NCBI GenBank assembly: GCA_027923505.1
Contig: BROI01000011.1
Coordinates: 620,001-684,000, forward strand
Length of the DNA stretch: 64,000 nt
From: Mayamaea pseudoterrestris
Lineage: Eukaryota > Bacillariophyta > Bacillariophyceae > Sellaphorales > Sellaphoraceae
Direction of reading: 5' to 3'
This document shows, in pieces, positions 7,142 to 32,920 of this stretch. The notes under the pieces were generated by a model that saw only the letters and a list, made by a program, of their open reading frames with translations, was not told the origin of the DNA and did no database searches. The position numbers and the translations under genes were made by a program. Every line of letters begins with the position of its first letter. Positions within the stretch are counted from its first letter, which is position 1.

Positions 7142-7574
7142 GCCAATTCATCTTCATGGTCAATTTTGCTGATACGTGTCCTTGTGCCGGTGTTGAAAGG
7201 GTCTTTTGCTTTGCGAGTGCCGCAATTGTCGCGCTCATTTCTCATTTATGACAACCAACCACTGCAAGGTGAATTGCTCTTTTAATCATGGTAACAGCAA
7301 ACGCTCTGTTTCCTCCGATCACTTCATGTATTAGTTTATGACTGTTTTTCGACAAGAAGAGCGCTTGCAACCCTTTATAGTAGTCTTCTATTCTTCTAGT
7401 CAAGCATTGGTGATTGATTGTCGAATTATCGAGTGATTTTAACACGGACGAATGCGAGTCCCAGTACGATGTTGGGACTTGATTCAGTCGTGTGAAATAA
7501 TCCTTGTACCAATCGTCGTAGAATTCTACAAGGGATGGCCGGAGCGCGCGATCAGCTTGCACCACAAATCCACC
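7142..7574. other. Intergenic / 5' flank of the PDI gene, 433 bp
   Basis: This lies between the P450 relic and the PDI start. A minus-strand open frame spans 7598-7242, but it has no recognisable content and starts inside the PDI gene. I see nothing else. Confidence 0.35.
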
Positions 7575-8956
7575 ATGGGATTCATGAGACCTATGCATCT
7601 GAGTTTTCTCATCTTCGTATGCTGCATTGTCAGTTTACTTGCAGTAAGCAAGGCAGAATCAATCTACGAAAAGGATGCGAATGTAAATGTCATTTCAAGC
7701 CATGAACAGTTCGTCGCCGAAGTGGAGACATCCGATTCGATTTGGCTTCTCCATGTGTACTCGTCAGTGAATCCGAAGCAAGCTGCTGTCGTCTCTGCTA
7801 TCGCTAAATTAATGAAAGGAATATTTTCAGTGGCAGCTGTTGATATGGAGAGTTACCGAGATGCCGAAACACTCAAGCAAAAGTATTCTATCAGCTCGTC
7901 ATCGACCTTGCTCATTTTGGCCGACGACAAGCAAACGAAAGCCCACACCACATTATCGACAGGTGACTTGAATTTGCAGAAATTAACGGATTCTCTTGTG
8001 CAAGCTGCTGGACAAACCATTTCGGAGCGTTCTCGTGCGCTTAATGGTGCTTCAACCACCGATTCCAGCAACGGTGGTGGCCATGGCTCTAGCATTCTTG
8101 TCACATCAACGGACGCTACGTTTGCAAATGACGTTTTAAACAATCCTCTGGTTGTCATGGTTGCATTTACAGCTCCATGGTGTGGACATTGTAAGCGGCT
8201 TGAACCGGAATGGAACCAAGCGGCACAAATTTTGGCCAAGCAAGCATACGCTCGCAACGCGATTCGTTTGGTGTGGGTCGACGCGACGGAAAATCCGAAA
8301 GTCACGTCCAAATTTCAAGTCAAAGGATATCCAACGATTAAAATCTTTCCCGGAACAAACAGCAGCAGTGCGGTTAGTCACAACAAGAGGGCCACTGACG
8401 CCAAGGACTACACCGGCGAGAGAAATGCGGCAGGCATGGTGCAAGCTCTCTTGGAAGAAGTTGACAGGACGGGCATTCCATTGGAAATTGCCGAATTGAC
8501 AAGCGCTAAAGTATTGCAGGAGCATTGTGCCGGCTCGAACCATATTTGTATTCTTGCGGGTTTACCGCACATTGTTGAAAGTGGCGCTGACGGTCGACGC
8601 AAAATTTGGAAAAGGTTGGCCAAGTCGCCAAGGCGTTTCGATCTTCCATGGCATTTTCGTTCTTGTGGTTTGAAGGCACCTCGCAACCGGAGCTTGAAAG
8701 TACTCTTGAACTAACTTTTGGATTCCCAGCTGTAGTTGCATTGTCCATGGACCGGAAAGCGTATGCAGTGATGCGAGGAGCTTTCACGGAGAAGGGCATG
8801 GCGTCGTTTTTGCATTCATTGACAACAGGACGACAGATGACAGTTCATATGCAAAGTCTACCAACTATTGAAGCAGTCGAGCCTTGGGACGGACAAGACA
8901 CAGTGCCAGGGGAGGAAGAATTCAGTCTTGAAGATATAATGGGTGAAGATCTGTAA
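7575..8956 (+). CDS. P5/PDIA6-type protein disulfide isomerase, one frame disturbance
   Basis: ER thiol oxidoreductase. ATG 7575 in strong context (caccATGG) opens a signal peptide (HLSFLIFVCCIVSLLAV, res. 8-24). The first thioredoxin-fold domain (about res. 35-150) has no CxxC: the active-site position reads HVYSSVNPKQ. The second domain (about res. 170-300) has the full active site APWCGHCKRLEPEW (CGHC at 203-206) and the cis-Pro turn GYPT. After RRKI (codon 344, near 8604) the frame is lost, and the rest of the P5 C-terminal domain (LEKVGQVAKAFRSSMAF, GAFTEKGMASFLHSL, ending EDIMGEDL) continues in another frame to 8956. One missing T in the TTT run at 8605-8607 would account for it, so sequencing error, recent mutation or an unusual transcript are all possible. 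Without restoration the protein stops at 8714 after unrelated residues. GEDL may be a divergent ER-retention tail. Confidence 0.85.
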
Positions 8957-31441: not shown

Positions 31442-32028
31442 ATGAATTGGGAGTCGGACTTACTGGCCATTGAGGTCTGTCAACTTTTCAAACAATCGCC
31501 GATACTTGTTGTGGGTTAACAGGGAATAAAGCTAACGTAAAGCTTAAATTTTAGTAGTTGGATGCGTAATATTTCTACCGGTAGCTCCACCAGTCGCCCT
31601 CGCGCATAAATGGCAACCGCAGCCGACATAATGACATAACTCCCGCGCCTTTCAAACTTGCTCCTATTGATTTTGTCTCGCCATGCACAAAGACGCGCTA
31701 CCACTGCAATGCCATGACCACAGGTAGATGAAGGTCTGGTTGGTGCTTCACACAGTGGCGCAGTGCATGCTCAAAAGATAACTGGATGATTAGTCGGACA
31801 TGTCACCAGAAGGAATTCATCGCTCCCAAATTGAAGTCAACTTTCAAGACATATGATCGTTATTTCTATTTAAACTCAAGTCTCCACAAAGCGCCTAAGC
31901 TTAACTTTTACTTGTCGGCCATTGAGGTAACTACTTGTTCCCTCGAGCAGCGTCATTCGTTCAAGCCAGCTTCCATACACTAATGTCGACTTTTGGAGTC
32001 CTTGCTATGCTGGGCGTATCTGTAAACC
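31442..32028. other. Convergent intergenic region, 587 bp, holds a candidate SECIS
   Basis: This lies between the 3' ends of the small plastid gene and the selenoprotein candidate. The half nearest the latter should be its 3' UTR and contains the hairpin described separately. No other gene is supported. Confidence 0.4.
31911..31966 (-). promoter_or_regulatory. Candidate SECIS element in the selenoprotein 3' UTR
   Basis: On the minus strand the core ATGA lies at 31956-31953. Thirteen bases later an AA pair (31939-31938) sits in a 13-nt apical loop closed by GAGG (31944-31941) with CCTC (31927-31924). Below it GCTG can pair with TGGC, with one mismatch and one bulge. The opposing GA is at 31916-31915 (CGAC), giving the UGA/GA quartet of eukaryotic SECIS. 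A lower stem (GCTTGA with TTAAGC) can form outside the core. It begins about 75 bases past the expected stop codon. The structure was folded by eye, so it may be chance. Confidence 0.4.
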
Positions 32029-32920
32029 CTATGCAACTAACGCACGCGCTATTGAAAGGACCTTATCCATCGGGGCGTGAGACGCAGTCGATGGGTCGTA
32101 GTGGGCATACACCGTCTTGTCGCCCGCAATGACAAACGTTCCGCCTTGTAGAAACGCCTGCTCATTCTTTGGAGGGATGTAAAAGGCTTTCGACACCAAG
32201 ATGTTCGAATGTTAGCGTCATTCTAAAGTCAATAGCGTGTAAACCCAATACATATCCTTCCATCGTACCTTTCGTCCACTTGCACAAAACCTTCTTAAGA
32301 TCGTCCACGCCATCCTTCCTTGTAAACCGATCCAAGAATGCAAATGGCGTGTTCACATTGAAAAAGGTACGTTGAATGCCACGATTAAGGTCGAGCTCAT
32401 CGTACAAGATGTTTTCAGGGTCCACGTAAAGATACTGTGATCCATTTTCTATCTCCAGGTGTTCGATTAAACTCGCCAGTTTCTCCGGCGTCCCAATCGA
32501 CACCATAACAAGCGTGATGTTGCTACGTTCCAGCTCGTTCACCACTTTCATCCATTGCAAAATGGATTCTTGGCACAAAGGTCACCCGAGCGAGCGCAGA
32601 AAGACAGTAATCACCGGTCGGTTTGACTCCCTTGCTGGAAGTAAGCTATCGAAGACGACCGACTCGCCAGTGGCGCTGTAGACGGAGGTTCCTTGCACTG
32701 CTTGTCGCGCGTTTAGTTGTTGTGCGCGGCTGGATGGCTCACCTGAGAATTCAGTGGGTGTGCCGCAGCCGCAGTCTTCCTGGATCACGTCCAATCCTTC
32801 CATAGCGCGAAGAGCGTGTGCTGATCGAAACTTGGTGCGAGATGGAAGGAGGGCGTAGCTAGCCACGTTGTCGGCGACCGCTAATATGCCAATAATCAGC
32901 CATGTGATGGCGCAGTTCAT
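32029..32920 (-). CDS. PRXL2/SelU-type (AhpC-TSA2) thioredoxin-fold protein, probable selenoprotein
   Basis: ATG 32920. The N-terminus has a signal peptide (WLIIGILAVADNVAS) followed by YALLPSRTKFRSAH, compatible with diatom plastid targeting (aromatic at +1). The thioredoxin-like domain starts with ESNRPVITVFLRSLG, after which TGA (32584-32582) is followed in frame by PLCQESILQW. In PRXL2/FAM213 proteins this spot is G-C-x-x-C or, in SelU, G-U-x-x-C, so the TGA falls exactly on the redox-active residue and is best read as selenocysteine 113. The domain continues with VMVSIGTPEKLASLIEHL and GIQRTFFN. Near 32190 the frame shifts: one frame reaches a TGA at 32164, while another carries the expected family C-terminus (FYIPPKNEQAFLQGGTFVIA, then KTVYAHYDPSTASHA) and stops at 32029. 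That second disturbance may be a sequencing error or real decay. Role: redox protein of unknown partner. Confidence 0.72.

Follow-up and report, generated by a model that had tools for sequence, protein, structure and literature searches.

Genes and features at the locus

The window, i.e. the whole stretch of 64,000 nucleotides analysed here (positions 620,001 to 684,000 of contig BROI01000011.1 of the diatom Mayamaea pseudoterrestris, assembly GCA_027923505.1), carries on its minus strand a peroxiredoxin-like gene whose reading frame starts with the ATG at 32920 and runs through 112 codons to an in-frame TGA at positions 32582-32584, corresponding to residue 113. The frame continues open past this codon and, with the TGA written as U, reads ...RPVITVFLRSLGUPLCQESILQWMKVV..., where U replaces the first cysteine of a CxxC motif to give UxxC (U-P-L-C, in FLRSLG-U-PLC).

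The coding part of exon 1 (32269-32920, minus strand) extends from the ATG to the first base of the split codon 218 and encodes a hydrophobic N-terminus and the start of the redox domain, with 104 codons between the TGA and the exon end at 32269. It is followed by a predicted 82-nt intron, GTACGA...GAAAG (32187-32268), and by the coding part of exon 2 (32029-32186), which completes the split codon, adds 51 further codons (exon 2 sequence FYIPPKNEQAFLQGGTFVIAGDKTVYAHYDPSTASHAPMDKVLSIARALVA) and ends at the TAG at 32031-32029. The spliced product has 269 residues, encoded in one frame of 269 codons with no further stop or frameshift. The intron is predicted from the reading frame and from the family score: removal of positions 32268-32187 raises the match to the PF13911 (AhpC-TSA_2) profile from 28.5 to 46.1 bits, which supports both the intron and conserved coding after the TGA. 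The first-pass annotation had counted more than 130 open, conserved codons beyond the TGA; conserved coding does continue there. The 138-codon open reading frame listed after the TGA overshoots into the predicted intron.

In all three coding segments (upstream of the TGA, downstream of it, and exon 2) the used frame has the best codon-usage score, by a small margin (before the TGA, 0.124 compared to 0.091 in one antisense frame) and with reference to 13 open reading frames of the window selected by ourselves. Within exon 1, the other two sense frames are interrupted by four to six stops both upstream and downstream of the TGA. A 17-nt splice that would excise the TGA (GTGACC...CAAG) was considered and rejected, being too short and leading to the loss of the motif. 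The AlphaFold2 model of exon 1 alone had a mean pLDDT of 34.7 and was not used.

The N-terminus of the protein (32800-32920, minus strand) resembles a signal peptide and is followed by VASYALLP, which we take to be loosely similar to the diatom plastid-targeting motif, so judging by these residues the protein could be imported into the plastid. Elsewhere in the window, an open reading frame on the plus strand (7452-8714) contains WCGHCKR, recognized by eye as a protein-disulfide-isomerase-like active site.

Family assignment and relatives

The PF13911 match covers residues 127-249 of the spliced protein (E 7.3e-12), a stretch that falls entirely downstream of the TGA and bridges the intron; the score of 46.1 bits exceeds the curated cut-off of 27. 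The TGA itself is spanned by a match to NF040769 (SelL-related redox protein), which extends over residues 99-262 and profile positions 23-171 of 173 (E 1.1e-15) and is the sole NCBIfam match of the protein at E up to 0.1, its 57.8 bits being below the curated cut-off of 120. The membership of the PRXL2/SelU-like group suggested earlier holds as far as PF13911 is concerned. The sole NCBIfam match is SelL-related and below its cut-off; judging from the profile scores, the protein may be SelL-like or belong to another Prx-like branch.

Seven PF13911 matches were found in the genome. The site corresponding to residue 113 is a TGA in the window gene and in a second SelU-like gene (L008) and a cysteine in L009, L010, L011 and L012, and a match below the cut-off, L014, has no such cysteine by eye. 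When the window protein is aligned with L008, L009, L011 and L012 and U is written as C, 11 columns are invariant, R109, G112 and residue 113 among them, the last being Cys or Sec in all five proteins (TGA in the window gene and L008, Cys in the other three). The in-frame UGA at the redox position claimed by the first-pass annotation is confirmed by this column together with the frame.

The second SelU-like gene (G000:C32:238074-241382, protein at 1432-1935 on the minus strand) has the UxxC site CFVVRRCG-U-FFCREQ, and its stop codon is followed by a hairpin with the GAAUGAC core. It scores 14.8 with NF040769 and more than the window protein with PF13911, and it may represent the more typical SelU in this genome.

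Outside the genome, relatives of the window protein were not found in the collections of viral contigs and genome contigs, exon 1 as a query gave no match to plasmids at 1e-3, and the PDB sequence search returned nothing better than E 0.28. The spliced protein matched plasmids in five places with E of 0.1-0.6; the one compared at the site, a weakly matching Fusobacteriota plasmid protein (E 0.1, 27% identity over 110 columns), has CPYC opposite U-PLC.

Selenocysteine machinery and other TGA-containing genes

The genome searched (30.6 Mb, 41 contigs) contains homologues of tRNA-Sec, SepSecS, SPS and eEFSec. There are two tRNA-Sec genes with the anticodon TCA, located separately on one contig (L001 and L002, G000:C7). 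SepSecS is represented by two matches, one of which has a TGA near its end that is probably an exon edge. In the SPS gene (SPS2, L017), GUACK is read in the preceding exon. The search with TIGR00475 gave 19 matches with none over the cut-off, the best of them being eEFSec according to the PDB, where it best matches the entry "Selenocysteine-specific elongation factor" (E 4.5e-126).

Six other genes possess a TGA at the selenocysteine site: two coding for GPx (L006, L007), one each for SelT (L022), SelM (L041) and SPS (L017), and the SelU-like L008, the positions being what we take to be the known Sec sites of these families. A single TGA lay inside the match for two of three GPx, one of five Rdx and the only Sep15/SelM match, and the TGAs of L008 and SPS, outside the matched stretch, were spotted by reading the sequence. 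The two GPx genes and those for SelT, SelM and SPS2 are probable further selenoprotein genes. None of the ten AhpC-TSA matches contained an internal stop. MsrA was rejected as a TGA gene: one of its nine matches has two internal TGAs, but the locus reads GCYWG, the Cys form. Two loci about 11 kb apart (L018-L021; G000:C1, about 1.883 and 1.894 Mb) each contain two tandem Rdx (SelT/SelW-like) matches; at the L018/L020 locus both tandem matches have CxxC.

Candidate SECIS element

Downstream of all six of these genes, which served as controls, there is a SECIS-like hairpin with the core GAAUGAC, and a hairpin of the same kind is a candidate SECIS of the window gene (31890-31981, minus strand). 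Its core (31958-31952, with the UGA at 31955 on the coding strand) begins at base 71 of the 3′ UTR, and the 3′ GA lies at 31916-31915. The 3′ UTR, 587 nt long, contains one GAATGAC, whereas 0.07 would be expected at the window's own rate.

In the sample comprising the window and loci L001-L041 minus the overlapping L004, L013, L016, L020 and L021 (183,552 bases, both strands), 43 GAATGAC sites have enough flanking sequence, and the SECIS geometry was found in seven of them, namely the six controls and the window site, and in none of the other 36; the geometric bounds were taken from the controls (L006, L007, L008, L017, L022, L041), which hence pass by construction. Under alternative sets of thresholds with the GAATGAC core the window site was kept and no site outside the seven was added. 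When the core is relaxed to AAUGA, the geometry is found at 26 of 682 sites, including 19 beyond the seven, so that taken alone it occurs at about 3% of such sites. Of 2000 sequences with shuffled flanks, 106 passed the geometry irrespective of energy and 65 when the energy of the window hairpin was also demanded. One GAATGAC against 0.07 expected, multiplied by 0.03-0.05 for the fold, is suggestive, bearing in mind that the core was noticed with the controls and the window candidate both in view and that the test was devised afterwards and not blind.

The hairpin consists of a 17-pair outer stem and an upper stem of 3 + 4 + 2 pairs interrupted by internal loops. It is the weakest of the seven: in 108-nt stretches with the core held unpaired it has an energy of -23.5 kcal/mol vs -27.5 to -40.6 kcal/mol in the controls, and once the energies of the controls are required the window site fails and 5 of 1000 shuffles pass. 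The folding z-scores of -0.53 and -0.48 show its stability to be ordinary for its composition.

Other scans gave little. Rfam yielded no SECIS match in the window at gathering scores, nor at E up to 10 in the gene region or in six loci including five controls, and no match to SECIS_1 in the whole genome, where 133 of 474 first-look candidates were scored; this silence says little, since the tested controls were missed as well. The first, cruder scan of the window UTR detected nothing, a scan requiring the apical AA detected nothing in any of the six UTRs scanned (five from controls), and the usual SECIS rules pointed in the window UTR to weak other sites only (UGA at 31878 and 31846, upper stems of -5.2 and -4.4). 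An unrestricted UGA..GA scan gave a best value of -14.1 in this UTR at a site other than the candidate, equalled by 14 of 40 shuffles. For the controls, its best value was equalled in 6 of 40 shuffles for L008, 20 of 40 for L022 and 6 of 40 for L041, while for L006 and L007 the best site (0 of 40 shuffles each) differs from the GAAUGAC site; such a scan is a poor judge of SECIS elements.

By eye, the hairpins of L006, L008, L017 and L022, four of the seven, lack AA or CC at 8-13 nt after UGAC, and this would account for their being missed by Rfam and by the AA-based scans; in L007 and L041 the AA stands exactly 8 nt after UGAC. A doubtful further idea is that the hairpins form a lineage-specific SECIS type with a fixed GAAUGAC core and an apical AA that is often absent, in which case the window protein would be a branch of UxxC selenoproteins between SelU and SelL in this lineage. 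A search of the 3′ UTR for a SECIS, suggested in the first-pass annotation, has turned up a hairpin 71 nt in, albeit the weakest beside the six controls and with no Rfam match, and the candidate can be regarded as only moderately supported.

Interpretation of the TGA codon

The TGA, the open frame around it, the family match and the homologues of the selenocysteine machinery are all directly visible in the sequence, and the best explanation for them is very probably that the TGA at 32582-32584 is read as selenocysteine. This reading, already put forward in the first-pass annotation, is preferred because the TGA stands in an invariant Cys/Sec column, the machinery genes and six other TGA genes are present in the same genome, and a SECIS candidate follows the stop codon.

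It is quite improbable that the TGA is an assembly or sequencing error in place of TGT or TGC, making the product an ordinary cysteine protein. The TGA is one base away from the cysteine codons and the protein search returned this single locus only, but the error would have had to strike precisely the codon at which the relatives carry Cys or Sec, when the genome contains six further TGA genes of this sort and the GAATGAC hairpin lies in the UTR. The weakness of that hairpin would fit a dying gene with a nonsense mutation, in which the UGA is a real stop. Against such a pseudogene, the 269 codons contain neither a further stop nor a frameshift, the splice signals are plausible and the family match is retained past the TGA, and we consider it very improbable. 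Hardly credible is a third possibility, that the UGA functions as a stop and the gene yields a 112-residue product serving some other role: the open reading frame up to the TGA is indeed intact, yet such a product would end directly before the active site and the PF13911 match lies entirely beyond it.

Under the selenocysteine reading, the product would be a 269-residue peroxiredoxin-like thiol/selenol oxidoreductase of the AhpC-TSA_2/PRXL2 superfamily with Sec as the first active-site residue. The ribosome would decode the UGA as selenocysteine by means of tRNA-Sec and eEFSec, directed by the putative SECIS hairpin soon after the stop codon. The selenol probably attacks a peroxide or a disulfide, and the cysteine three residues later would resolve the intermediate (UxxC), like the Cys pair of CxxC homologues.

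A gene caller treating UGA as a stop would truncate this gene directly upstream of the active site, and the GAAUGAC core shared by the hairpins is a simple means of finding other overlooked selenoprotein genes of the genome. The outcome is a gene correction and one more probable selenoprotein of a kind known from diatoms.

Comparison with known selenoproteins

Among the titles and abstract beginnings that the literature search covered, none names this very gene. The occurrence of selenoproteins in diatoms, which the first-pass annotation had taken as known, is reported in PMC2375036 and PMC7539508. According to the latter (Jiang and colleagues), diatoms have 20 to 44 selenoprotein genes, and the stramenopile and haptophyte algae examined in PMC6627142, including Thalassiosira pseudonana, are described there as possessing the complete Sec machinery.

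With SelU, the window protein has in common the PF13911 domain, the presumed Sec in a CxxC-like motif and the algal host. SelU belongs to the PRXL2 family. The window protein is only 22% identical to the other SelU-like protein of the genome, L008, which has the higher PF13911 score (61.1 vs 46.1 bits). Two of the 16 selenoprotein genes of T. pseudonana are SelU according to Lobanov and colleagues (PMC2375036), and SELENOU is listed among the four most widespread selenoproteins in 36 algal genomes in PMC7539508.

The likeness to SelL consists in the NF040769 match, which covers the Sec site. SelL has two selenocysteines in a UxxU motif, whereas the window protein has one predicted Sec and a cysteine in the second position (UxxC). 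In PMC2398784, SelL is called Prx-like and marine Prx-like UxxC selenoproteins are listed.

The third protein to be compared is AhpC_b, which Jiang and colleagues (PMC7539508) report from Thalassiosira oceanica as a selenoprotein with a UxxC motif. It resembles the window protein in the UxxC motif, the AhpC_TSA domain and the diatom host, and differs from it in that the PF00578 score of the window protein, 23.1, is under the cut-off of 26.
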